Notes under the pieces: generated by a model
Told to the model about the DNA's origin: nothing
Seen by the model: the letters and a program-made list of their open reading frames with translations, nothing else
The model's database searches: none
Part shown: positions 7,805 to 30,827 of the stretch, one piece after another
Layout: every line of letters starts with the position of its first letter
How positions within the stretch are numbered: the first letter of the stretch is position 1
Program-made: the position numbers and the translations under genes
DNA from: an uncultured Nitrospinota bacterium
Lineage (GTDB): Bacteria; UBA8248
NCBI GenBank assembly: GCA_947258645.1
Contig: CAMYJL010000006.1
Span: forward strand, 1 to 33,090
Reading direction: 5' to 3'
Length of the DNA: 33,090 nucleotides

Positions 7805-8986
7805 CTATTCCGGCACCACAACTCTCTTGTCGTGCCCGGCGGGAAGGCCATTGTTGAGCGTGTCGAGCATCCAGTCCGCGATGGCGGGATACATGTCCGC
7901 CGCCACCTCGCCCATCGGGTGAAATACGCCCTCGTAGAGCCAGAGTTCCTTCGGGCAGGTGAGCGTGTTTATGAACACCTCGATGTCCTCCGGAGAGCAG
8001 AGCTCGTCCATGTCGCCCGCCACGAGAAGGTAGTTCGCCTTCATCTTTGCGGCCAGGGGCAGCCAGATGCTGTCACGCTTCTCGACGAAGGCGTCGAACT
8101 CGTCCTCGTCCAGGATGTTGGACATGTACATGTAGATGCGTTTGAAGTTGGGCTGGGCTTGATTGAAAATGATATCCGAAGGGCCGACATTGGCCATCTG
8201 CCCGCACACCGCCTGCGGGCGCGGATCGTTCGCGGCGATCTCCACCGTCCAGCGGCTTCCCATGCTCATGCCGAAGAGGCCGATTTTGGATTCATCCACC
8301 TCGGGGCGGGCGCAGAGCAAGTCGAGCACCTTGCTCCCGGCGCGGGCGTAGTTTTCATGATCCACCCAGACCTGGTTGATGTTGCTCTCGCCCTGCCCCG
8401 GCCCGTCCATGATGGCGAAGTTCATCCCGCGCATGTGGAACCAGTTATTCCAAGGGAGCAGGCCATCTTCCTTGATCATGTCCATCCCCGGTATCAGGAG
8501 GACGGTTGGCTTGGGCCCCTCCCCCTCGGCGGGCCAGAAATAAAAGTAGGCGTTCTTGCCCGGATCGAACTCGGCCTGGTGTTTTTCGATCTTCCCGCCC
8601 ATCAACTCGCGCATCTTGTCGAAGCAGCGCAGTACACCCGCGTGGTACTCCATCTTCTTCGGGTGGCCGTCGACCGGAATGAGGTGCTGCGCCCGGCCGA
8701 AGCAGAGCCCCGCCCGGTTGTAGTGCAGCTTCGCGGTCTGGATATGTCCGGCCCCCTCGGCCGCACGGGCTTTTTCCTCCTGAACCGCCGCCTGCCGGGC
8801 CCAGAGGCGCGGAAAAGAGCGGCGGCCGGTCACGCGGCTGTACACCGCCTCCAGATCCATGTGCTTGAAGCCGCGCTCGTAGCGCACCCCCATGATGCCC
8901 GGATGCAGCACGTCCTCGTTGTCCGAGAGCTTGAGAAAATTATCGAAAATCCAGTTCTGGCTCGACCGCGACGCTTGCCTTCTCAT
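7805..8986 (-). CDS. Alpha/beta hydrolase (FrsA/DUF1100-like)
   Basis: Nucleophile elbow 'IGLFGMSMGSRW', oxyanion region 'VLLIPGMDMIKEDG', 'AIMDGPGQGES', C-terminal 'AGDMDELCSPED' and 'GVFHPMGE'. Confidence 0.85.
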   Translation of the reverse strand: MRRQASRSSQNWIFDNFLKLSDNEDVLHPGIMGVRYERGFKHMDLEAVYSRVTGRRSFPRLWARQAAVQEEKARAAEGAGHIQTAKLHYNRAGLCFGRAQHLIPVDGHPKKMEYHAGVLRCFDKMRELMGGKIEKHQAEFDPGKNAYFYFWPAEGEGPKPTVLLIPGMDMIKEDGLLPWNNWFHMRGMNFAIMDGPGQGESNINQVWVDHENYARAGSKVLDLLCARPEVDESKIGLFGMSMGSRWTVEIAANDPRPQAVCGQMANVGPSDIIFNQAQPNFKRIYMYMSNILDEDEFDAFVEKRDSIWLPLAAKMKANYLLVAGDMDELCSPEDIEVFINTLTCPKELWLYEGVFHPMGEVAADMYPAIADWMLDTLNNGLPAGHDKRVVVPE

Positions 8987-9056: not shown

Positions 9057-10436
9057 TTAGCTTCCGGGGGAATTCGCCAAATGGCTCAGTCCGCCTTCTT
9101 CCATGATCCGCCGGCCGGAGTCGGCGAGTTGTTGTTTTTTCGATGCGAGGTCGGATTCAGAATACAGGAGCCGTCCCCCCTCTTTCACCCTGCGCCCGGC
9201 GACGAATACGGTATCCACATTGGAGCGGCCGGCGTGAAACACCACGGCCTGAACCGGGTCGTTGACCGGGAACATATTGATGTCCCCTGCCCGGAGCAGG
9301 ACGATGTCCGCCTGCTTGCCCGGCGAGAGAGAGCCAATCCGCTCCTCCAGCCCGAGCGCCCGGGCGTTGTTGATCGTCGCCCATTCGAGCGCGTGCCGGG
9401 CGGTCAACATTCTCTTCTTCCCGGCGCTTTCAGGGGAAGCGTGGGCCAGATTATCGAAGATGCGCTCGCACTGGAGCGCGAAACGCATCACGTAAAACAT
9501 ATCGCCTTCCAGATATATCTCGATATCGGCGCCGATTGACGGCCTTCCCCCCAGCGCCATGACCCGGCCCGTGAGGGGCTCGGCAGGGTGCTTCTGCGCC
9601 TCGACCGCCGGCGTCGCCGTGACCGAGACCCCGGCGTCGACGATGACGCGAAGCTCCTCATCCTCCAGATAATTTCCATGAACAATGTTGTGATCGGGAC
9701 CCAGCAGGCCTTCCTCCTTCAACCTGTGGTAGCCCTCCTTGACGAGCCGGTCGGGTGTTCCCCAGATATGCGCGCTTGAGAGGAGACCGTACTCGCGTGC
9801 AAGGCGGAAGTCGTGAAGCGTGACCTCAAGAGTCGAATAGTCCGACCCCAGAATCGCCATCGCCAGCGTCACCAGCCCCCCGTCGTCGGAAAGGCGTTCC
9901 TTGCGCAGCCGCATGATTTCTTCTCTCGGGTGGGGGATTCGGGAGTAGTGCGGCTCGCCCTCTTTGGGGTCGGGCTTGACGGTGCCGTGGCCGAATACGG
10001 CCCGGACACCCGAGTCGATCAAACCGTCGATCGCCGCGTCCGAATGCTCGGGGGTGGCGTTGTTGTGGCACCAGTCGAAGATGGTCGTCGTGCCGGAATC
10101 GATCTGGTTCAGAGTGCCCAGAAGGTTTCCCAGATAGGTGTCCCCGGGCGTATAGCGGGGGGCCAGATTCGCGTGGACGACCCGGAAATACTCCGGCCCC
10201 CGCCAGTCTCCCCCAATGCCGCGGAGCGCTGTCTCCCAGGTGTGCAGGTGCGCGTTGATCAGGCCGGGAATGACGATCTTCCCGCTCGCGTCCAGAATTT
10301 CGGCGTCCTGCGCATCGAGTTTTTCCCCAACCGCGAGGACGCAATCGCCCTCGATCAGGAGGTCACCGGTTGGCAGGTCGCCAATCTCCGGGTCCATCGA
10401 GATAATGGTCCCGTTCCGGATGAGAATTCTGGACAT
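9057..10436 (-). CDS. Metal-dependent amidohydrolase (Atz/Trz / SsnA-like subtype)
   Basis: 'IPGLINAHLHTWETALRG' (HxH), 'SLSPGKQADIVLLRAGDINMFPVNDPVQAVVFHAGRSNVDTVFVAGRRVKEGG'. Start at MSRILIRNG (10436) preferred over 10487. Confidence 0.88.
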   Translation of the reverse strand: MSRILIRNGTIISMDPEIGDLPTGDLLIEGDCVLAVGEKLDAQDAEILDASGKIVIPGLINAHLHTWETALRGIGGDWRGPEYFRVVHANLAPRYTPGDTYLGNLLGTLNQIDSGTTTIFDWCHNNATPEHSDAAIDGLIDSGVRAVFGHGTVKPDPKEGEPHYSRIPHPREEIMRLRKERLSDDGGLVTLAMAILGSDYSTLEVTLHDFRLAREYGLLSSAHIWGTPDRLVKEGYHRLKEEGLLGPDHNIVHGNYLEDEELRVIVDAGVSVTATPAVEAQKHPAEPLTGRVMALGGRPSIGADIEIYLEGDMFYVMRFALQCERIFDNLAHASPESAGKKRMLTARHALEWATINNARALGLEERIGSLSPGKQADIVLLRAGDINMFPVNDPVQAVVFHAGRSNVDTVFVAGRRVKEGGRLLYSESDLASKKQQLADSGRRIMEEGGLSHLANSPGS

Positions 10437-10613
10437 CTCCCCCTCCCGAACCCGGCGCGCAACGGCAGTTCTGCAGCAGAGGGCCATCAGGCAAATTATA
10501 AGTGGGCTTCAGATATTGGTGTCCACGATACCTGAGATGGACAGATCCCGCGAATGGCGACGGCCATGAAAAGGACACAGGGTTCGGTACACCTGTGCCA
10601 GAATGAAAGGAAA

Positions 10614-18550: not shown

Positions 18551-20107
18551 CTAGTTGCTTCCGGTCAGGCCGATCTCCCAGGCCATGATCCGCTCGTCCA
18601 CCCGCGGGTCCCAGTCCACGCGATTGCGCAGCCCGAAGGTCGCGTGCAGCCGGTAGAGTGGCACCACGGAGAGATCGTCGGAGCCCTTCTTCGCGATGGA
18701 CGAGAAAATCTCATCCCGCTTCTTGTAGTCCTGGTTCGCGGAAGCCTGGTCGATCATCTTTTCGATCTTCTTGTCGCACCAGCCGCTCCAGGAACCCCGG
18801 CAGCCGAAGATGGAGCCCAGCTGGAGGTCCGAGTCGCCGCCGCCGCCGCCGAACGAGTTGAAGAACAGGAACGGCTTGAAGCCCTTGCCGGGCTTCTTGC
18901 GATGCTTCCGGAAGCTGTTGCGGAACGAGCGGGGGCTGAGCTGGACGAGCTTCACCCGGATGTTCGCCTTGCGGAGCATCCCGGCCAGCACCTGGCCCGC
19001 CTCACGCGTTTTCAGGTGATTGGTGTTCGCCATCAACTCGATGTCGATGCCGTTCGGATAGCCCGCTTCGGCCAGGAGTTTCTTGGAGAGCGCGGGGTTG
19101 TACTCGTAGGGATAGGGGTAGTCTTTCGGACTCCGATAGCCCTCCGTCCAGGGATGGAGCACCACGGAGGCGTCCTCGGCGCTTCCCTTCAAGACGGACT
19201 CGCGGAGCGTCTTCCGATCCACCGCGCGGGCGACGGCCTCGCGGAGCTTTTTGTTGTCCAGCACGCCACCCCATTTGTTATAGAACCCGAGGCGGAATAT
19301 CCGGATACTCGGCTTCGAGACGACCTTCGCCACGCCGCTCTTGTTCACCCGATCCCACATCGCGGGCGGGACGTTGAAGACAACATCCACCTCGCCCTTG
19401 ATGAGCGCGGCCACGCGGGCGCCGGCCTCGGGAATGACCTTCACGACCAGGTGCTTCACCTTGGGATAACGCGGATCCCAGAAATTGGGATTGGCCTCGT
19501 AGACACGGTGGTCATCCCGTGCCCATTTTTTCAGAATATAGGGGCCGCTCCCGACCGGATGTGTCGCCAGATAACGGAGAGGCTTCGAGGAGTAATACTT
19601 CGGGGGAATGATCACGCCGACGTTTCCGAGGCGGTTCACGAACCCCACATCCGGATAGGCCAGATGGAAGCGCACAACGTACTTGCTCACCACCTCGACC
19701 TTTCCGCCCTTTGCTTTCGAGATCACGCGCATACGCCGCCTCTGGCGGGACTTGAGCTTCTTGTCGAATACGCGCTCCATGCTGTATTTCACCGCGTGGG
19801 CATCCATGTCCTCGCCGTTGGTGAACTTGATTCCTGGCCGGAGCGTGAATTCGAGAATCTTCGGCGTGACCCACTTGTGGCTCTTCGCCAGGAGATGGAT
19901 CAATTCGCCCTTGGGGGTTCGATGCATGATGGTCTGCATCACCCACCGGTTCGTCATGTTGGAAAGCTGGGAGCTTTCCGTGTGCGGGTCGTGTGTCGGC
20001 GTCTCGGACTTAAAGCCCATCGTGAGCGTTGCGTCCTTCGGCGCCGCCCATGCATAGGAAGCGACCGAAAGAAGCACGACAGCCGCTACGGCAATTAATC
20101 GTTTCAT
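18551..20107 (-). CDS. ABC transporter substrate-binding protein, family 5 (dipeptide/oligopeptide type)
   Basis: Signal peptide MKRLIAVAAVVLLSVASYAWA; 'EFTLRPGIKFTNGEDMDAHAVKYSMERV', 'PVGSGPYILKKW', 'LREAVARAVDRKTL'. Start 20107 with GGAGGG RBS preferred. Confidence 0.92.
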   Translation of the reverse strand: MKRLIAVAAVVLLSVASYAWAAPKDATLTMGFKSETPTHDPHTESSQLSNMTNRWVMQTIMHRTPKGELIHLLAKSHKWVTPKILEFTLRPGIKFTNGEDMDAHAVKYSMERVFDKKLKSRQRRRMRVISKAKGGKVEVVSKYVVRFHLAYPDVGFVNRLGNVGVIIPPKYYSSKPLRYLATHPVGSGPYILKKWARDDHRVYEANPNFWDPRYPKVKHLVVKVIPEAGARVAALIKGEVDVVFNVPPAMWDRVNKSGVAKVVSKPSIRIFRLGFYNKWGGVLDNKKLREAVARAVDRKTLRESVLKGSAEDASVVLHPWTEGYRSPKDYPYPYEYNPALSKKLLAEAGYPNGIDIELMANTNHLKTREAGQVLAGMLRKANIRVKLVQLSPRSFRNSFRKHRKKPGKGFKPFLFFNSFGGGGGDSDLQLGSIFGCRGSWSGWCDKKIEKMIDQASANQDYKKRDEIFSSIAKKGSDDLSVVPLYRLHATFGLRNRVDWDPRVDERIMAWEIGLTGSN

Positions 20108-20202
20108 ACCCTTCCCTCCTTGCTGGTGAGCAGACCTGCGACGGGGCACAGCCCCCGTCCGCTTTATGAAAAAGAGGAACACCAATCTCTCAATACGCTT
20201 GC

Positions 20203-21486
20203 TTAAACGACAGTCAGTTCAAGCGGGTACTTCGTCACCCGCTCATGGCCCGTCTCGGTGATGATGTAGGTTCGGCCGATGAAGCTTCCCAGCCTTCCAT
20301 CCGGGGTGATCGGGTTCGGCTCGGACATGATCACCATGCCCGGCTGGAGCGTGCGATCACCATCCTTCGCCCGAATGTCCTTCACTGACACGTGCGGGGA
20401 GCACGTAACGATATCGATGCCGTGTATCAGGGTAGGTCTGGAAGTATAGCCCTTTTCGACGATCAATTGCCCCGCTTCCTGAATCTCCTCGACGGTGCCC
20501 CCGGGCCGGAGGGTGGCTTCGATGGCCTCGAACACCGGAATGGCCACCTCCTCGTGCATGCGGCGCATGGCGTCACTTGGCGTCCCGAGGCAGATGGGTG
20601 CGCCGATCTGGGCCGTATAGCCAAAGTAGCCAGCCGCCAGCTCATTGAGGACGGCATCTCCCTGCCGGAGCTTGCGGCCCGAGGGGCGGGGGTTCCCGAA
20701 GGGAAGCGCGGGGGCGGACATGGGGGTCGAGCCGATGATGTTGAGGTGGACATACCCCCCGTCGTCCTGAATGGCGAACGAGGCGCTCGCGGCAAGCTGG
20801 TGCTCCGCCACGCCGGGCGCCACCCGATCGCGGATGGCCTCGACCGCCCGGTCGCAAAGCGCCCCCGCCTTTCGGACGTAAGATCTCTCCTCTTCGCTCT
20901 TGATGTTCATCAGAGGGTGGAGAATCTCGGAGACAAACTCTATCCGGGCCTCGGGGAGCTTTTCCTTCATCTCCACATAGTAGTTTGCGGGGAGATATTC
21001 ATTCGCCCTGCCCTCGGAGTTGGCGCTGGCGAGCCCGATACGCCCGGCGCCCAGGTCGAGTTCTTTGATGCGCTGGACGATGGCGTCGCCAAATTTTCCG
21101 CCCGCGGCGCGGACATCCTTCACGGCGCTCGCCTGCCGCGTCGCCCAGATGTGCGCGCCGCCCATCGAACACAGGAGGGTCGGCTCTCCCTCCAGGGGAA
21201 ATACGACGTATTGCGAGAGGGCGCGCGAGTCGAGGTGGCCCGAGAGCCAGACCATGCCGTAGCCCATGCTGCCGTTGTTCATGCTGCCGGGCACGATGAG
21301 GCAGTCCAGGCCCTTCTCGCGCATGGCGGCCCGGAGCGCATTGTATCTGCGGCGGTACTCATCCTCGGAGAAGTGGGGATAAACCGTGTCCCCGTACCAG
21401 GGGGCGTCGGCGAGATCGTGAAAGTTCTCCCCCAGGTGAAGGGCACTGCATACGGAATCAAAAGGCTTGGGGGCCATGATCAACAC
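20203..21486 (-). CDS. M24-family (creatinase/prolidase fold) protein, paralog 1, non-canonical metal site
   Basis: Creatinase-N-like domain plus pita-bread domain 'LRQGDAVLNELAAGYFGYTAQIGAPICLG', 'LIHGIDIVTCSPH', 'MVIMSEPNPITPDGRLGSFIGRTYIITETG'. Confidence 0.88.
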   Translation of the reverse strand: MLIMAPKPFDSVCSALHLGENFHDLADAPWYGDTVYPHFSEDEYRRRYNALRAAMREKGLDCLIVPGSMNNGSMGYGMVWLSGHLDSRALSQYVVFPLEGEPTLLCSMGGAHIWATRQASAVKDVRAAGGKFGDAIVQRIKELDLGAGRIGLASANSEGRANEYLPANYYVEMKEKLPEARIEFVSEILHPLMNIKSEEERSYVRKAGALCDRAVEAIRDRVAPGVAEHQLAASASFAIQDDGGYVHLNIIGSTPMSAPALPFGNPRPSGRKLRQGDAVLNELAAGYFGYTAQIGAPICLGTPSDAMRRMHEEVAIPVFEAIEATLRPGGTVEEIQEAGQLIVEKGYTSRPTLIHGIDIVTCSPHVSVKDIRAKDGDRTLQPGMVIMSEPNPITPDGRLGSFIGRTYIITETGHERVTKYPLELTVV

Positions 21487-21505
21487 TCCATGTCTTTCAA
21501 CATAT

Positions 21506-22477
21506 CTAATCCAGCGCCTTGAGGCGGGGATCGAGAAAATCGCGAAGCCAGTCGCCCAGCAGGTTGGTGGACAGGACCGTCATCATGATGGCCAGCCCCG
21601 GGAAGACGCAGATCCACCAGGCGGTGTCGATGTAGGCCCGCCCGTCCGCCAAGATTCCGCCCCAGGTGGGCGTCGGCGGCGGAACGCCCAGGCCGAGAAA
21701 GCTCAGAGAGGCCTCGATGATGATCATCCGGCCGACGGAAAGGGTACCGATCACGACGGCGGGGGCGACAACATTCGGCAGGACATAGACAAACATGATC
21801 CGGAGGATTCCCATCCCCGCGGCATGTGCGCCCGTGACGAACTCCTGCTCCTTGACCGAGAGCACCGAGCCGCGCACCACGCGCGCGTAGACGATCCAGG
21901 TGCGCACGGATATCGCGAAGATAACGATGAACAGGCTCGGCCTCAGAATGGCCACCAGAGAGAAGACGATGATGATGAAGGGAAACGCGAGAAAGATGTC
22001 CACGATCCGCATGATGACGTTGTCCACCCAGCCGCCCATGAAACCCGACACCAGGCCGATGAGGACTCCGATCGTCCCGGCGATGATGACCACGCTGAGC
22101 CCGACGGTCAGGGAGACCTGGGCGCCGTGAACGATCCGGCTGAGCACATCGCGGCCGATGGCGTCGGTTCCCAGAATATGAAACTTGCCCGTGGCGGGGT
22201 TCGTGAACCACGGGGGCATGGCCCCCAGCCTGGGATCTTGATCCAGCGGGTTGTAGGGGGAGAAAAATTCCGGAAATATGGCCAGGAGCCCCATGATGAT
22301 GAGAACGATCGCGCCGACGAGGCCCACCTTGTGGCGGATGAGGCTCCGGCAGGCCGCGACGAGCACATGAGGCTCTTCCGGGGTCATTTCCTCGGTTCTC
22401 ATCTGCTCCATGAGTCCTGCTTCCGTCGCCGACACCGTTTCCTCAATCAAAGCGGATGCGCGGATCCAGCCACGCAT
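21506..22477 (-). CDS. ABC transporter permease, DppC/OppC type
   Basis: Multi-TM; 'HILGTDAIGRDVLSRIVHGAQVSL', 'EQEFVTGAHAAGMGILRIMFVYVLPNV', 'LSFLGLGVPPPTPTWGGIL'. Confidence 0.94.
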   Translation of the reverse strand: MRGWIRASALIEETVSATEAGLMEQMRTEEMTPEEPHVLVAACRSLIRHKVGLVGAIVLIIMGLLAIFPEFFSPYNPLDQDPRLGAMPPWFTNPATGKFHILGTDAIGRDVLSRIVHGAQVSLTVGLSVVIIAGTIGVLIGLVSGFMGGWVDNVIMRIVDIFLAFPFIIIVFSLVAILRPSLFIVIFAISVRTWIVYARVVRGSVLSVKEQEFVTGAHAAGMGILRIMFVYVLPNVVAPAVVIGTLSVGRMIIIEASLSFLGLGVPPPTPTWGGILADGRAYIDTAWWICVFPGLAIMMTVLSTNLLGDWLRDFLDPRLKALD

Positions 22478-23360
22478 ACAGAATATCCACGGTCAGGTTG
22501 ATGAAGATGAACATGAACGCGAGAAAAAAGACGGCCGCCTGCACGACGGGAAAGTCGTCGTTCAAAATGGCGTTGACCGTGAGCCGGCCCACGCCCGGCC
22601 AGGCAAACACGGATTCGGTCACCACCGTTCCGCCGAGGACGATGCCGAGCTCGAGGCCGATCACGGTGACGACGGGGATGGCAGCGTTTTTCAGGGCGTG
22701 CTTGTAGACGACGATGGTATTCCGGAGTCCCTTGCTTCGCGCCGTGCGCACATAATCCTCGGAGAGGACTTCGAGCATGCTCGAGCGCAGGACGCGCGTA
22801 ATTCGCGCGGTGGCGTAAAGGCCCGCCGTGATGGCGGGGAGGAGCAGGTGCTTGAACGTGCCGCGCCCATGCGAGGGGACCAGATCGAGCCAGAGCGAAA
22901 CGGTGAGAAGCAGGATAAGCCCGAGCCAGAAATTGGGCATGGATTGACCCAGCAGGGCCCCGATCATGCTCCCGTGATCCAACATGCTGTTGCGCCGGGT
23001 GGCGGAGACGACGCCCGCCGGGATGGCGATGATCAGAGAGACGAAGATGGCGGCGAAAGCCAGCTCCGCCGTCGCCGGAACACGGTCCAAAACAAGACCC
23101 ATCGCCGGCTCCCCCTGGCGGAACGATTCACCGAATTCAAACTTGAGCGCGCTGACGAAAAAGCGACCGTACTGGGTGATGAGCGGATCGTTGAATCCCA
23201 TCAATTTGTTCAGCTCCTCGACATCTTCAATATCCGCGTCTTCGGGGAGGAGCATTTCGGCCGGAGCGCCGGTGAGATGCAGCATGAGAAAGGTGATGAC
23301 GAGAACACCCTTGAGGACGATCAGCGCCTGAAGAAGGCGCCTGACGATATAACCCCACAT
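22443..23360 (-). CDS. ABC transporter permease, DppB/OppB type
   Basis: 'MWGYIVRRLLQALIVLKGVLVITFLMLHLTGAPAE', 'LLPAITAGLYATARITRVLRSSMLEVLSEDYVRTARSKGL'; overlaps the downstream permease by 35 bp. Confidence 0.94.
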   Translation of the reverse strand: MWGYIVRRLLQALIVLKGVLVITFLMLHLTGAPAEMLLPEDADIEDVEELNKLMGFNDPLITQYGRFFVSALKFEFGESFRQGEPAMGLVLDRVPATAELAFAAIFVSLIIAIPAGVVSATRRNSMLDHGSMIGALLGQSMPNFWLGLILLLTVSLWLDLVPSHGRGTFKHLLLPAITAGLYATARITRVLRSSMLEVLSEDYVRTARSKGLRNTIVVYKHALKNAAIPVVTVIGLELGIVLGGTVVTESVFAWPGVGRLTVNAILNDDFPVVQAAVFFLAFMFIFINLTVDILYAWLDPRIRFD

Positions 23361-23524
23361 GCGAATTTCCTTACCACGGGTTGCGAGAAGCTAGCGATAA
23401 GAGCAAGTTCCCGATCCGAAACGTGGACCACCCCTCGTCACTAAAAACAATCGTTCGAATATTCAAAATATGGCCAAAGTACCAAATTGACTAAAACGCG
23501 GCAAGAAACGCTCCTGCCAGCTCT

Positions 23525-24745
23525 TCAGCCACAGCGGATGACTTCCGGCGCAACCCGGTGCATACGCTCGAAGCCCTCCCCCGTAATCACGCCCATGTCC
23601 CCCAGCTGAACGCCCATCCGCTCGTCTTTCGTCGTCGGGTTCGGCTGGATAACGACGGTCATGTTCTCCTCGAACACGAATCGCGGCGGTGGCGGAAAAT
23701 CGAGCGAGCGGACCGAGGGCGGCAGGATATCCACCCCGAAGCCATGAAACAGCCCGTCCACCGTCGTATAGCCGCTCTCGGGAATCAGCGAGGTCGCTTC
23801 GTAGATGTCCTGCGTCCTCGTTCCGGGCTTCAGGAGCGCGGCCACCTGGTCGTAGACTTTCTTCGCGACATCGTAAAGTTTCGCGTAGTCGGACGTCGGG
23901 TCTCCCATAAAAAAGGGGCGCAAAATCTGCGCCGAATACAGCCCGTAGCTGGCACTGAGCTCGGTATTGATCACGTCGCCCATCTGTATCTTCCGGCGGG
24001 AGATATTCTGGTTCGGAACACAGCTCTCCGATGCCGCCATAGGCGTGCTGTTCAGATACAAAAACTGGGGCTCACAGCCCGCCGCCCAGGCCGCTTTTTC
24101 GCTAATGATCTCAAGTTCCCGTTCCTCGATTCCCGGCCTGAGCTCCCGCGTCATGGCCTCGATGGCATCGTCACAGGCTCCCGCCGCCTTGCGCTGGAAC
24201 GCCAGTTCTTCCTCGCTCTTGCGCGCCCGGATTTCCCGGAAGGCGCCTGTCGCGTCCGCCCACTCCACCGATGGAAGCTCCCGGCGCACGGCGTCCATCA
24301 CCTGGTAATAAACGGTACCCACCACGCCAACAGAGCCGAAGCCCTTGCCCTTTATCTCCTGAGTGATGGAGGGCGCGGAATCTCGACCCTGCTTGGCCGT
24401 CCGGCGAACATCATCGAGTACGGACACCTCCTTGGCGCTCGCCAGGTGGTTGTTGTGGGTGATGAAAAGCGTCGGCTCCCCTTCCTTCGGGAAAATCAGG
24501 TAGCTCTCGTGGCGCGGCGCAACACCGGCAAGATAATGAACACTGGCATGGTTGTGCTGCCGGTTTCCGCTATGACCGAAGACGAGAAGCGTATCGAACC
24601 CTTCCCGGTCCATCATGGTCCGAACGTTCTTGTAGCGGCGCTTGAACTCCTCGGGGCTGAACTGGGGAATCCCCTCTTTGCTCATGCGCACCCTTTCACC
24701 AGGAAGAACCGGGGAGCGACCAATCTTGGAGTTTGATTTTGTCAA
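23525..24745 (-). CDS. M24-family protein, paralog 2 (divergent), non-canonical metal site
   Basis: 'IQMGDVINTELSASYGLYSAQILRPFFMG', 'GLFHGFGVDIL', 'MTVVIQPNPTTKDERMGVQLGDMGVITGEG'. Confidence 0.85.
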   Translation of the reverse strand: MTKSNSKIGRSPVLPGERVRMSKEGIPQFSPEEFKRRYKNVRTMMDREGFDTLLVFGHSGNRQHNHASVHYLAGVAPRHESYLIFPKEGEPTLFITHNNHLASAKEVSVLDDVRRTAKQGRDSAPSITQEIKGKGFGSVGVVGTVYYQVMDAVRRELPSVEWADATGAFREIRARKSEEELAFQRKAAGACDDAIEAMTRELRPGIEERELEIISEKAAWAAGCEPQFLYLNSTPMAASESCVPNQNISRRKIQMGDVINTELSASYGLYSAQILRPFFMGDPTSDYAKLYDVAKKVYDQVAALLKPGTRTQDIYEATSLIPESGYTTVDGLFHGFGVDILPPSVRSLDFPPPPRFVFEENMTVVIQPNPTTKDERMGVQLGDMGVITGEGFERMHRVAPEVIRCG

Positions 24746-24865
24746 TTAAATCTAATATGGTGGGATTTCATTGTCAATCTCACATTATGAGAATTTCCAA
24801 AAGCCTTTGGCTCACGGAAAGGTCATCCTTTCTTTGCCGAACAGCCGAAAGAGGAGCGATTCTCC

Positions 24866-25690
24866 ATGTCGAGTCTCGTCCGAATGCTTGGCGTCCTGGA
24901 CGTTTTTTCCGAAGACGTGCCGGTCTGGACAGTGGATCGTCTCGTAGAAGAGCTCGGCTATTCGAGGTCAACGGCATACCGCTATGTCAAGGAACTTTGC
25001 GAGGCTGGTTTGCTGGCCCAGATCGGGGGCGGCAACTACATGCTGGGCCCCCGGATCATCATGATGGATCGGCAAATCCGAATCTGCGATCCCTTGCTGG
25101 CCGCCGGACAGAAAATCATGCCCGGCCTTCTGGACATGTGCGGAAAGGGCGCCCTGCGCATCTGTTGTCTGTATGGCGACAAACTCATACTGATTCACCA
25201 GATAACCAACATCAGCGGCCTGGAAGAAAGATACCCTCGCGGCCTTCAAATGCCCCGGGTGCTGGGGGCCGCATCCAAGCTTATTCTCGCTCACCTGCCG
25301 GAAAGGCAAGCGATCAAGATATTTTTGCACCATCAGGACGAAATCAAGTCTGCCGGACTGGGAGAAAGCTGGGAAGATTTCCGGGCCAACCTTCGCCAGA
25401 TGCGCCTGGACAAAACCTCCCGGGCCTATGGAGAAATCGACCCCGACGCCGTCGGCATCGCCGCTCCCATTTTCGGCGGCGACGGCCCCATCGTGGGCAG
25501 CCTGAGTCTCGTGGTGAAGGAGCGGCCGTTTTCCGAAAAAAGACTCGATACCCTCTCGGATCAGATTCAGAAAGGGGCCGCGCAACTCTCAAAGATCATC
25601 GCCGATCTTTCCAACCCATACAGTGAGTCTCCCAGCGCGGTGGCCATGGCCATCGGGCCTTCCCACAAAGAGCCCCTTCGCCGGCGCTGA
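24866..25690 (+). CDS. IclR-family transcriptional regulator
   Basis: N-terminal wHTH 'VRMLGVLDVFSEDVPVWTVDRLVEELGYSRSTAYRYVKELCEAGLLAQIGGGNYMLGPRI'; IclR effector domain 'GAASKLILAHLPE', 'IDPDAVGIAAPIF...IVGSLSLV'. Confidence 0.93.
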   Translation: MSSLVRMLGVLDVFSEDVPVWTVDRLVEELGYSRSTAYRYVKELCEAGLLAQIGGGNYMLGPRIIMMDRQIRICDPLLAAGQKIMPGLLDMCGKGALRICCLYGDKLILIHQITNISGLEERYPRGLQMPRVLGAASKLILAHLPERQAIKIFLHHQDEIKSAGLGESWEDFRANLRQMRLDKTSRAYGEIDPDAVGIAAPIFGGDGPIVGSLSLVVKERPFSEKRLDTLSDQIQKGAAQLSKIIADLSNPYSESPSAVAMAIGPSHKEPLRRR

Positions 25691-25726
25691 ACCTCACCCG
25701 GCACGCGGGAACGGAAGGAGAGAAAA

Positions 25727-27004
25727 ATGAACAACTCTTCCGGCAAAAGGCTTGATATCCACTCGACCGAGGCCATGGTCAATTTAAAAGACGCGGTCTG
25801 GCACAAAGATTCCATCTATCCCAGTCCGTCGCCCGAGGAATACAAACGCAGGCACGAGGCGCTTCGCGAAGAAATGAAAGCGCAGGGATACGACTGCCTG
25901 ATCGTCGGCGGCGGCTCCAACCTGATGAGCATGTGGGGCGGACTCGTCTGGCTCACCGGCCACATGGATCATCGAACGATGGCCCAGTACGTCGTCTTCC
26001 CGCTCAAGGGCGAGCCCACCCTCCTCTACCCGATGGCGAACTCGCACATCTGGTCCGCGCGGGCGCAGGCGAAAGGCGTTCAGGACATCCGCTCCGTGCG
26101 CGGAAAGGCGGGCGGCTTCGGAAAGATGATGGTGACCCGAATCAAGGAGCTGGGGCTTGAGACCGGAAGCATCGGCCTCACCTCGGTCAACATGGAAAAG
26201 TGGGCCGAGTTCATCCCCGCGAACTTCTACCTGGAGCTCATCGAGGGGTTGCCGAAAGCGAACATCTCTTTCGTTCCCAAAATCTTCCACAAGCTCTGGG
26301 TCAAGAAGAGCCCCGAGGAGCTGGACCTCTACCGAAAGGCGGGCGAGCTGTGCGACCGCGCCCATGAGGCCGTCCTCGAACACGCCAAACCCGGTGCGAC
26401 CGAGCGCGAACTCGCCGCCCGGGCGGCTTTCGCGATGTCGGCCGGCGGGGGATATCCCCATCTGTGCATTTTGGGAATTACATCGATGGAAGATCCCTCC
26501 CAGATATTCGGCAACCCCAACCCCTCGGATCGGGTACTCGAGGAGGGCGACCTCATCAACAACGAACTGGCGGCGGGCTACTGTGGCGTCACCTCTCAGA
26601 TCGGCAACCCCATCTGCGTGGGAAAACCCACCGACATTGTGAAAAACCTCTGGGAGGAGGCTGTTCTTCCGACAGCGATGGCGATGGAAGAAGCGCTCCG
26701 CCCCGGCAAGACGATGGATGACCTCCTCAAGGCCGGAGAAACGATGACCGATCGCGGCTACACCGGGCGGCCCATTCTCATGCACGGAATGGATATCTGC
26801 AGCTCCGACCCGAGCGTCAGCTTTGACCGGATCGTCGCTGAAGACTATGAACGGACGATGTTCCCCGGCATGGTGCTCATGAGCGAACCGAATCCGATCA
26901 CTCCGGACGGCAAGCTGGGCCTCTTCTGGGGCCGGACCTACATCATCACCGAGGACGGAAACGAGCGCGTGAGCAAGACGCCTGACGAGTTGTTCGTCCT
27001 CTAG
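25727..27004 (+). CDS. M24-family protein, paralog 3, non-canonical metal site
   Basis: 'LEEGDLINNELAAGYCGVTSQIGNPICVG', 'LMHGMDICSSDPS', 'MVLMSEPNPITPDGKLGLFWGRTYIITEDG'. Confidence 0.88.
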   Translation: MNNSSGKRLDIHSTEAMVNLKDAVWHKDSIYPSPSPEEYKRRHEALREEMKAQGYDCLIVGGGSNLMSMWGGLVWLTGHMDHRTMAQYVVFPLKGEPTLLYPMANSHIWSARAQAKGVQDIRSVRGKAGGFGKMMVTRIKELGLETGSIGLTSVNMEKWAEFIPANFYLELIEGLPKANISFVPKIFHKLWVKKSPEELDLYRKAGELCDRAHEAVLEHAKPGATERELAARAAFAMSAGGGYPHLCILGITSMEDPSQIFGNPNPSDRVLEEGDLINNELAAGYCGVTSQIGNPICVGKPTDIVKNLWEEAVLPTAMAMEEALRPGKTMDDLLKAGETMTDRGYTGRPILMHGMDICSSDPSVSFDRIVAEDYERTMFPGMVLMSEPNPITPDGKLGLFWGRTYIITEDGNERVSKTPDELFVL

Positions 27005-27075
27005 GCCGCCGATTTCTATTTTCCGTTTTTTTCCGCCGCGCTCATCCGCGGCGCCGACGCCAAAAGGAGCCGACA

Positions 27076-28359
27076 ATGGGCGAATTCGAGTTTTCCAAGG
27101 TGTGCGGATCGCTTCACGAAGGGCGTGTTTTCAACAACCTCGAAGACTCGCCCTGGCACAAGGACGCGGTTTATCCCCGCTTTTCCGACAAGGAATTCGA
27201 GCGCCGCAGGGAGGCCACGCGGGCCGCGATGAAAGAGGCGGGCGTGGACTGCCTCATCCTTGGCGGAAGCTGCAACCTGATGAGCATGTGGGGCAGCCTC
27301 GTCTGGCTCACCGGCCACATGGACTACCGGAGCGTGGCCAACTACGCCGTCTTTCCGGCCGACGGAGAGCCGACCCTCCTCTACCCCATGTCGGGCACCC
27401 ACATCTTCGGCGTCCGTCAGCAGGCCGCGGGCATCAAGGATGTCCGCCCGGTGCGCAGCGTGGGCGGCTACGGAAAGGGCGCGGCGGCGCGCATCAAGGA
27501 GCTGGGCCTCGAAGCCGGAAATATCGGCATCACCTCGATCAACATGGAGGGCTGGGGACCCGAGTATCTTCCCGTGAACTATTTTCAGGACATGCAGGAA
27601 GAGCTGCCCAATGCGAATTTCGTCTTCCTCCCCGATTTCTTCCACAAGCTCTGGTACATCAAGAGCGAGGAGGAGATGGCAATGTACCGCAAGGCGGGCG
27701 AACTCGCCGATCGGGCGCTCGAGGCCGTCGTCGAACGGGCGAAGCCCGGCGTGACCGAGCGCCAGCTGGCGGCGAGCGCGAACTTCGCCATCGCCGACGG
27801 GGGGGGATACCCGCACTTCTGCATCATGGGGATCACTTCCATGAAAAACCCCGCACAGATATTCGGCAACCCGAACCCCTCGGATCGGCCCCTCGAGGCG
27901 GGAGACATCATCAACAACGAGATGGCGGCCGGCTACGGCGGCGTCACCGTCCAGATCGGAAACCCCGTCTGCGTCGGCGAGCCCACCGAGGCGGCCCAAA
28001 AGCTCTGGGACGAGGCCGTTCTCCCGAGCGCGAACGCCATTGACGCCGCCCTGAAACCGGGCAGCACCCTCGAGGACGTGCGGCTGGCCGGCCACGTCAT
28101 CGTCGACAACGGCTACACGGGCCGCCCTACGCTCTGCCACGGAATCGACATCGCGACTTCCTCCCCCCACATCCGGATGGAGGAGATACACGGAGCGGAC
28201 TACGAGCAGACGCTCCAGGCCGGCATGGTCATCATGAGCGAGCCGAATCCCGCCACGAAGGACGGGCGGCTGGGCATGTTCTTCGGGAGGACCTACATCA
28301 TCACCGAAAACGGAAACGAGCTCGTGACCAAATACCCATTCGAACTCCCGGTTGTTTAA
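27076..28359 (+). CDS. M24-family protein, paralog 4, non-canonical metal site
   Basis: 'LEAGDIINNEMAAGYGGVTVQIGNPVCVG', 'LCHGIDIATSSPH', 'MVIMSEPNPATKDGRLGMFFGRTYIITENG'; closely similar to paralog 3 over the full length. Confidence 0.88.
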   Translation: MGEFEFSKVCGSLHEGRVFNNLEDSPWHKDAVYPRFSDKEFERRREATRAAMKEAGVDCLILGGSCNLMSMWGSLVWLTGHMDYRSVANYAVFPADGEPTLLYPMSGTHIFGVRQQAAGIKDVRPVRSVGGYGKGAAARIKELGLEAGNIGITSINMEGWGPEYLPVNYFQDMQEELPNANFVFLPDFFHKLWYIKSEEEMAMYRKAGELADRALEAVVERAKPGVTERQLAASANFAIADGGGYPHFCIMGITSMKNPAQIFGNPNPSDRPLEAGDIINNEMAAGYGGVTVQIGNPVCVGEPTEAAQKLWDEAVLPSANAIDAALKPGSTLEDVRLAGHVIVDNGYTGRPTLCHGIDIATSSPHIRMEEIHGADYEQTLQAGMVIMSEPNPATKDGRLGMFFGRTYIITENGNELVTKYPFELPVV

Positions 28360-28378
28360 CAGGGATCGGGAGGATTCA

Positions 28379-29578
28379 TTGACGGAGGAGGAAGCCCGGG
28401 CGGCGGGAAGATTCGGGGACATCCAGAAAACCGCATTTTTCTCGCTCATTTTCGCCCACGCCGTGAACGACATGGCGGGCGCGTTCTTTGCACCCCTGAC
28501 GCCGCTGATCGCAAAGGAACTCGGCCTGAGCCTGACGATGATCGGCGTCATCATGTCGATCCGAAGCTTTTCCACATCGCTCCCCCAGCCCCTGTTCGGC
28601 TGGCTGACCGACCGCTATCCGAGCCAGTGGTGGCTGGTGGCGACGCCACTCATCGTCGGCCCGTTCCGGACCGCGATTGGCTTCGCGACCGGGTTCTGGA
28701 GTCTCGCGGCGATGCTCTCCGTCGGCTCGTTCGGGGCGGCCTGCTTTCATCCCGCCGCCGCGTCGCGGGCGAGAGCGATTTCGAGCGGGCGCCGGGGGCT
28801 GGTGATGTCCTCCTACGTCGCCGCCGGGCGGCTCGGTCATGCGTGCGGCCCCATCGTCGCGCTCTCCCTCGTCTCCGTTCTCGGGCTCAAAGGTTTGGCA
28901 TGGGCGACGCTCCTCTACCTCGCCTCGATGGTGGTCCTCAAGAAATTTCCGCCGGAAACCGGGGCAAAGAAGCCTGGCGGGCGACGGGAAGGAAAAGCAG
29001 AAGAAAAGCCCTCGGGGGCGCCAGGCGGGGCCTGGCGGTCCATGGCTCTTCTCTACGTCATCAACATTTTTCGGAACATGGTGATGATTAATCTCTACGC
29101 CTTCATACCGCTCTACTTCGCCTCCCGGGGCGGCTCGCTCTGGACGGGAGGGGGCGCGCTGACCCTGCTCCTCGCCTCGGGGGCCGCGGGAGGGATCGCC
29201 GGGGGATGGCTCTCGGACCGAATCGGGCGAAAGAACGTTATCGTCGGAACGGCGCTGATGCTCATCCCGGCGTTTCTTTTGTTCCTGAACACCGAGGGCG
29301 CCCTTCAGTTTGCCGTCATGCTTCCGCTGGGCCTGTTGCTCCACAGCTCGATGGGGGTGAGTGTGGCCTACGCGCAGGAGCTCATGCCGAACCGCCCCGC
29401 CCTTGCGGCCAGCCTCATGCAGGGGGGAAACTGGTTCATCTCCGGCTTCACACTGACGGGAATGGGCGCGCTCGGCGACTGGCTGGGCATCCAGACGGCG
29501 CTTCAGGTTCTGGTTGTGGTCATCTGCCTGGAGTCCGGCGTCGCACTGACGCTACCGGGCCGGAGGAAATTGACATAG
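28379..29578 (+). CDS. MFS transporter (fosmidomycin-resistance Fsr-like subgroup)
   Basis: 12-TM-like profile; 'HAVNDMAGAFFAPLTPLIAKELGLSLTMIGVI', 'QPLFGWLTDRYPSQWW', 'GAACFHPAAASRAR'. TTG 28379 (GGGAGG RBS) or TTG 28352 as start. Confidence 0.85.
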   Translation: MTEEEARAAGRFGDIQKTAFFSLIFAHAVNDMAGAFFAPLTPLIAKELGLSLTMIGVIMSIRSFSTSLPQPLFGWLTDRYPSQWWLVATPLIVGPFRTAIGFATGFWSLAAMLSVGSFGAACFHPAAASRARAISSGRRGLVMSSYVAAGRLGHACGPIVALSLVSVLGLKGLAWATLLYLASMVVLKKFPPETGAKKPGGRREGKAEEKPSGAPGGAWRSMALLYVINIFRNMVMINLYAFIPLYFASRGGSLWTGGGALTLLLASGAAGGIAGGWLSDRIGRKNVIVGTALMLIPAFLLFLNTEGALQFAVMLPLGLLLHSSMGVSVAYAQELMPNRPALAASLMQGGNWFISGFTLTGMGALGDWLGIQTALQVLVVVICLESGVALTLPGRRKLT

Positions 29579-29663: not shown

Positions 29664-30827
29664 ATGAGCGATACTGCCATTCTCGAATCATTGCCGCTTG
29701 CGCCGAGCGAGGATCCCTTTGTGGTGGAGCACGGCGGCTTCTATCGGCGCTGGTTCTACATGATCGATGACTTGCAGCTCCTCAAGGACACAGTGGCCAC
29801 CCTCAAGGGAACGACGGACAACCTCTGGGTTCCCGTCTGGCGCGACCTCGGGAAACGCTTCGAGGACGAGGCCGAGGAACTTGCCGCCAAAGGGGACGGC
29901 CAGGCGGCCCGGGTGAAGTTTCTTCAGGCCAAGACTTTCTACAGCCTCGCCCGCTTTCCCCGGCCGCTCACACTCCTCAAGGAAGAGGCCAACCAGGACT
30001 GCATCCGGGCCTATCTCCGCTCGTGCGATTTTCTCGATCCCCCGATGGAGACCGTGAATGTCGAATGCGAGGGAAAATCGATCGTCTCCCACTTCAGAGC
30101 ACCCAAGGGCGCGAGCGCCGAGAATCCCGCGCCGGCCGTCCTGATCATGTGCGGCGGGGACATGTTCAAGGAAGACCGCGGCTGGGCGGGCGAGATGGCG
30201 ATGGACAACGGGCTTGCCTCCCTCGTGATGGACGGGCCGGGCACGGGAGAAAACCCTTTTCCCTACGAGCCTGAGTCCGTGAAGGCGTGGATGGCGGCGA
30301 TTGACTACCTGGCGGGGCGGCCCGAGGTGGACGCGGACTGCATCGGCGCTTTCGGCATCAGCCGGGGAGGACATTCCGTCATGCTGCTGGCGGGCTCCTA
30401 TCCCGAGCGGGTGCGGTGCGCCGTTGCGAGCGCGGGGCACCCCTACGGCTACCGGATGAGCAAGGAAGAAATCGAGAATTTCGTGGAGATGCGCAACAAA
30501 CGCTCCAGCGTCATCTACGGCGCGCCGGGCGACGCTCCCAGCTTCGCGCCCACATCGGTGGAAAAAGAAGAGGCGAACTTCAAGCGCTGGGCGCTCAGCG
30601 AGCTCGGCATCGTGGACAAGATCGTCTGCCCGATCCTCATGATCAACGGCAAGCAGGATCACCTCGCCCCAATCGGGAACATCTACTACATGCTCGAGCA
30701 CGGCCCCGTCACGGGCAAGGAGGCGCGCATCTACCCCGACGACGGACACTGCGCGTTCAAATATTTCGAGGAATGGGCGCCCGAGTCGTTCCGCTGGATC
30801 AGGGAAAAAGTGGACGCGGCGAAATAA
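29664..30827 (+). CDS. Alpha/beta hydrolase (FrsA/DUF1100-like), paralog of 7805..8986
   Basis: 'VLIMCGGDMFKEDRG', 'SLVMDGPGTGENP', 'RPEVDADCIGAFGISRGGHS', 'NGKQDHLAPIGN', 'DDGHCAFKY'; AAGGAGG RBS. Confidence 0.87.
   Translation: MSDTAILESLPLAPSEDPFVVEHGGFYRRWFYMIDDLQLLKDTVATLKGTTDNLWVPVWRDLGKRFEDEAEELAAKGDGQAARVKFLQAKTFYSLARFPRPLTLLKEEANQDCIRAYLRSCDFLDPPMETVNVECEGKSIVSHFRAPKGASAENPAPAVLIMCGGDMFKEDRGWAGEMAMDNGLASLVMDGPGTGENPFPYEPESVKAWMAAIDYLAGRPEVDADCIGAFGISRGGHSVMLLAGSYPERVRCAVASAGHPYGYRMSKEEIENFVEMRNKRSSVIYGAPGDAPSFAPTSVEKEEANFKRWALSELGIVDKIVCPILMINGKQDHLAPIGNIYYMLEHGPVTGKEARIYPDDGHCAFKYFEEWAPESFRWIREKVDAAK

Follow-up and report, generated by a model that had tools for sequence, protein, structure and literature searches.

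The window (the whole stretch of DNA that was analysed, 33,090 nucleotides) is one complete contig (G000:C6) of an assembly that consists of 509 contigs and has a completeness of 92%. The closest named relatives of this genome are Candidatus Tectomicrobia and UBA8248 genomes. Two divergent gene groups contain four genes coding for M24-fold proteins, which are designated A, B, C, and D and whose open reading frames (ORFs) are all intact. The order on the minus strand is M24 B, DppB, DppC, M24 A, and a solute-binding protein; on the plus strand, an IclR regulator is followed by M24 C, M24 D, an MFS transporter, and a FrsA-like hydrolase. The following features were located.

18551–20185, minus strand: family 5 extracellular solute-binding protein (SBP_bac_5; PF00496, 1.3e-73)
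20203–21486, minus strand: M24-fold protein A, 427 residues, E282-Q293-H355-E389-G404 at the ligand positions (ORF; PF00557, 1.5e-25; alignment)
20608–20643, minus strand: Glu282–Gln293 segment of A in place of the D-x10-D metal motif
21506–22477, minus strand: DppC-type ABC permease (ORF; assigned by eye from the sequence and from the conserved order in relatives)
22443–23360, minus strand: DppB-type ABC permease, between M24 B and M24 A (ORF; assigned in the same way as DppC)
23525–24745, minus strand: M24-fold protein B, 406 residues, E262-Q273-H334-Q367-G382 (ORF; PF00557, 1.2e-26; alignment; model)
23927–23962, minus strand: Glu262–Gln273 segment of B in place of D-x10-D
24866–25690, plus strand: IclR-type regulator, between the two divergent gene groups (PF01614, PF09339)
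25727–27004, plus strand: M24-fold protein C, 425 residues, E280-Q291-H353-E387-G402 (ORF; PF00557, 3.1e-25)
26564–26599, plus strand: Glu280–Gln291 segment of C in place of D-x10-D
27076–28359, plus strand: M24-fold protein D, 427 residues, E282-Q293-H355-E389-G404 (ORF; PF00557, 2.6e-27; model)
27919–27954, plus strand: Glu282–Gln293 segment of D in place of D-x10-D
28352–29578, plus strand: MFS transporter, downstream of M24 D (PF07690, 2.9e-36)
29664–30827, plus strand: FrsA-like alpha/beta hydrolase (PF06500; PDB 8qd1, 1.5e-25, and 2jbw, 6e-17), conserved beside M24 members

All four proteins are members of the Peptidase_M24 fold family (PF00557), which they match with 90–96 bits at a gathering score of 23 (E values of 3e-25 to 3e-27); the Pfam profile Creatinase_N is also above its cut-off in each of them. 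The AlphaFold models reach mean pLDDT values of 92.9 (D) and 92.4 (B), show M24 folds, and have M24 enzymes throughout as their best Foldseek matches. For D, the first match is the metal-free Xaa-Pro peptidase structure 5giu and the second is product-bound EutD/DoeA (6yo9); with B, EutD/DoeA takes the first two places.

An alignment with prolidases was used to compare the metal ligands. The canonical M24 ligands D-D-H-E-E correspond to E-Q-H-E-G in A, C, and D, and to E-Q-H-Q-G in B; none of the four proteins thus possesses the five ligands of an M24 metallopeptidase. A previous reading of the sequence alone (the sequence-only reading) had described Glu and Gln exactly 11 residues apart at ligands 1 and 2, Gly at ligand 5, and a retained ligand His in all four proteins, and the alignment reproduced each of these features. 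Its claim that all four share the same ligand loss is correct for ligands 1, 2, and 5. It does not hold for ligand 4, which that reading did not discuss and which is the only signature difference within the quartet: Glu in A, C, and D, Gln in B. The four proteins are therefore not identical, and B belongs to a different branch (see below). The M24 dinuclear site has been dismantled according to a fixed pattern, with Asp replaced by Glu, Asp by Gln, His kept, Glu kept or replaced by Gln, and Glu replaced by Gly. With the bridging Asp and Glu both gone, formation of a dinuclear site is not expected, and with regard to this centre metal independence of A–D is likely from their sequences.

The M24 genes are under purifying selection. 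Comparison with orthologs from related genomes yielded dN/dS values of 0.17 and 0.10 for A, 0.17 for B, and 0.28 for D, and a value of 0.15 for the neighbouring DppB gene, which served as a comparison; since dS is near or above 1, these values are rough. Values of about 0.1–0.3 rule out random decay of the metal site, against which the sequence-only reading had also argued.

The genome of the window contains 27–28 M24 loci (L001–L028), about 16 of which have D-D-H-E-E or a motif near it. E-Q-H-x-G is found in seven full-length M24 genes, and further variants read E-H-H-Q-G, G-H-H-E-G, L-E-H-H-C, and E-K-F/T-x-G. Genomes of the same taxonomic family have 8–27 M24 matches each, compared to 2–6 per genome in a sample of 23 unrelated ones. 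When genome contigs were scanned, 79 loci were identified, with relatives in Tectomicrobia, Chloroflexota including Ktedonobacterales, 'Deltaproteobacteria', Actinomycetota, Alphaproteobacteria, haloarchaea, and other archaea. Two search patterns were used; one of them included the ligand-4 residue, and ligands 1, 2, 3, and 5 were part of neither. The signature was E-Q-H-Q-G in 86 and E-Q-H-E-G in 13 of 139 aligned M24 sequences, a ligand-4 split that is biased by the search pattern. The E/Q/G pattern extends beyond A–D to three more full-length paralogs encoded in this genome and to about 100 homologs outside the window. No paper on an E/Q/H/x/G group of M24 proteins turned up in the literature searches.

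In order to avoid circularity, ligand frequencies were counted in a clade of a phylogenetic tree, because rows chosen by their signature would be circular for the ligand columns. The tree of 98 catalytic domains contains a clade of 71 rows with a support of 100/95 when the ligand columns are included. Every D-D-H-E-E protein, DoeA, and creatinase, which sits on a long branch, lie outside of it. The clade persists at 99/91 after removal of the five ligand columns, with creatinase left out. It covers Tectomicrobia, Chloroflexota, Actinomycetota, Pseudomonadota, and archaea. Within it, the ligand pattern goes beyond chance. In 70 of the 71 rows, ligand 1 is Glu. Ligand 2 is mostly Gln (60 rows), otherwise Lys (nine) or His (two). 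The ligand His at position 3 occurs in 66 rows; at ligand 5, 66 rows have Gly and five have Ala or Ser. Ligand 4 is Gln in 47 rows and Glu in 19, frequencies that are biased because this residue was part of one search pattern. No row has Asp at ligand 1 or 2, or Glu at ligand 5. A, C, and D are located in a branch of 13 rows (100/100), and B in the largest branch, which comprises 46 E-Q-H-Q-G rows; all four are thus members of a supported clade having Glu at ligand 1 and no Asp at ligands 1 and 2. Note that four additional rows (L017, L046, L020, and L131) join the clade at 99/87, a support that drops to 48/69 without the ligand columns. DoeA may or may not be the sister of the clade: the grouping of 77 rows has a support of 94/74, and p-AU is 0.43 without the ligand columns.

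A side branch with the signature E-K-F/T-x-G (L026:1294-2541, L027:964-2163, L081:4544-5740, L087:705-1940, and L092:3216-4526) has Lys at ligand 2 and lacks the ligand His as well; its genes are in frame and conserved.

A–D score far below the cut-off of every curated NCBIfam equivalog model (at best 72 bits, compared to 613 for DoeA). The assignment of A–D to a distinct, unnamed M24 subfamily, as postulated in the sequence-only reading, is supported. Three individual memberships were rejected. The model for the ectoine hydrolase DoeA/EutD (TIGR02993) gave 48.7–72.3 bits at a cut-off of 613, and that for the DMSP lyase DddP (NF043017) gave 30.5–32.8 bits at a cut-off of 600; creatinase was rejected on the basis of its residues H232 and E262, which are not kept.

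DoeA/EutD (PDB 6twj, 6twk, 6yo9) resembles the four proteins in its M24 fold, its Glu at ligand 1, the loss of the canonical ligands, and its setting in an operon for import and catabolism; moreover, it is the top structural match of B. Its signature reads E-P-P-M-T, with the third position placed by eye. The Glu of this signature has chain position 255, is presumably the residue of the covalent intermediate, and aligns with E282, E262, E280, and E282 of A, B, C, and D. In contrast, the other active-site residues differ, sequence identity is about 20%, and no ectoine genes were recognised around the M24 genes of the window. A gene for the DoeB/EutE deacetylase is present next to Rhizobium doeA; none was recognised beside A–D among the part of the window ORFs that was scanned.

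Creatinase (PDB 1chm, 1kp0, 7yto) is a metal-free enzyme of M24 fold that has lost ligands 1, 2, and 5 and keeps the His and, like A, C, and D, the Glu at ligand 4. It differs in its signature N-A-H-E-H and in its position outside of the clade. Its ligand His was placed by means of an ungapped motif alignment, which was used instead of MAFFT because MAFFT moves this residue by one column. Creatinase H232 is the His of the GAHNPV motif. At the positions of H232 and E262, A–D contain Asn and Gly/Leu, which means that the creatinase machinery is not conserved. The creatinase-like chemistry proposed in the sequence-only reading is therefore not upheld; judged by alignments and models, DoeA is the closer analogue. 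Neither set of residues is matched as a whole, however, because ligand 1 is common with DoeA and the His (plus the Glu in A, C, and D) with creatinase.

Prolidase and aminopeptidase P (PDB 1wy2, 1pv9, 5giu) are the best sequence matches of A–D and have the same two-domain fold, but possess a D-D-H-E-E dinuclear metal site, which is altered in A–D at three or four of five positions. DddP (PDB 4b28, 4s00) is a further case of an M24 fold serving a non-peptidase reaction; it retains the metal ligands.

The gene neighbourhood is that of a catabolic import system. The order DppB–DppC–M24 A–solute-binding protein is kept in three related genomes (G001, G008, G011), in G008 with M24 B in front. No ATPase gene was seen beside the Dpp-type permeases and the solute-binding protein. 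Two more variant M24 genes of the same genome (L017 and L012), with the signatures E-H-H-Q-G and E-Q-H-H-G, adjoin DppB/DppC/SBP genes of their own (loci L148 and L150; G000:C212 and G000:C5). M24 D lies next to the FrsA-like gene in G011, in G014 (L066/L141 record), and in G008 (at a contig edge). In G014, a UBA8248 genome, the ortholog of M24 D is split by a frameshift (L066:9161-10350 / L141:2853-4063), and the adjacent FrsA-like gene is 88% identical to that of the window.

The closest solved relatives of the FrsA-like hydrolase are Ayg1 and 2,6-dihydroxypseudooxynicotine (DHPON) hydrolase, both of which are C-C bond hydrolases. In 15 loci, the window included, such a gene is no more than 5 kb away from an M24 member, and in 12 of them the two are directly adjacent; these loci were selected by their M24 gene and not by the FrsA-like neighbour. 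They stem from Chloroflexota, Actinomycetota, Pseudomonadota, and a UBA8248 genome. Further neighbours of M24 genes are catabolic, namely Mo-hydroxylase, amidohydrolase, nitrilase-type, luciferase-type, and NMT1/ABC genes; individual neighbours in relatives may be wrong, because the genes were called as longest ORFs.

Our preferred explanation, to which we assign a probability of about 0.45, is that A–D represent an unnamed M24 subfamily that lacks the metal pair and hydrolyses imported small amide or N-heterocyclic compounds. They would then be cytoplasmic catabolic hydrolases that make no use of the M24 metal pair. The nucleophile or general base would be the invariant Glu at the position of DoeA Glu255; the retained His could provide acid/base catalysis, and the Gln and the Gln/Glu could hold the substrate in position. 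This substrate, putatively a small amide, a cyclic amidine, or an N-heterocyclic compound, would be imported by means of the adjacent Dpp-type ABC permeases and the solute-binding protein. It would be processed jointly with the enzyme resembling Ayg1 and DHPON hydrolase, under the IclR regulator.

Alternatively, A–D may be single-metal enzymes with an altered metallohydrolase or lyase chemistry, in which the pair is lost and Glu, His, and Glu together bind one ion (A, C, and D). These three residues are indeed still present in A, C, and D, and the His occurs in 66 of 71 clade rows. However, the bridging Asp is Gln, the bridging Glu is Gly, and the largest branch, whose 46 rows include B, has Gln at ligand 4 as well. 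We regard a single-metal enzyme as rather unlikely.

It is distinctly less probable that the proteins are catalytically dead and serve binding or regulation like Ebp1 and Spt16, which are eukaryotic M24-fold proteins. Such pseudoenzymes would explain the loss of the canonical ligands and the E-K-F/T-x-G side branch that lacks the His as well. The replacement residues, however, are polar and hardly vary between phyla; a catalytic site that has been rebuilt accounts for this better than a free pocket does, and the gene neighbourhood is one of catabolic import. Creatinase-type enzymes acting on creatine-like guanidino compounds are very improbable: three ligands are lost and His plus Glu are kept in A, C, and D as in creatinase, but Asn and Gly/Leu occupy the H232 and E262 positions and creatinase branches outside of the clade. 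Least credible of all are ordinary Xaa-Pro peptidases with metal ligands elsewhere in the pocket, even though prolidases are the best PDB sequence matches and a Dpp-type transporter would supply dipeptides, as D-x10-D and E-x10-Q form an ungapped alignment in all four proteins and most of the clade, and the clade alignment contains no other invariant Asp/Glu pair.

The large group to which A–D belong occurs in many bacteria and some archaea, and its members probably degrade small compounds after import and do so without a metal pair of the usual kind. A more specific proposal is rather doubtful, namely that the clade is a separate mechanistic class of M24 enzymes in which the invariant Glu effects covalent or general-base C-N or C-C cleavage, and which, together with the Ayg1/DHPON-type hydrolase, forms a module shared by several phyla for the catabolism of N-heterocycles or amides. 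Annotation pipelines label relatives as 'M24 family metallopeptidase' or 'Xaa-Pro peptidase', and these names are probably incorrect throughout the clade. If this is confirmed, creatinase and DoeA, the two bacterial M24 enzymes without metal that were considered, would be joined by a broad group. The transporter and hydrolase neighbours offer a direct route to the substrates.

Two further observations concern gene neighbourhoods. On a plasmid of Haladaptatus halobius (L139:4040-14663), a relative of M24 D is found among two amidohydrolases, an asparaginase, a cysteine hydrolase, an ABC importer, and an aldehyde dehydrogenase; here, the tblastn match is longer than the M24 gene as annotated. 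In the window, a second FrsA-like hydrolase and an amidohydrolase are neighbours on the minus strand (7805–8986 and 9057–10487), and the latter matches PRK08204 with 557 bits at a cut-off of 391.
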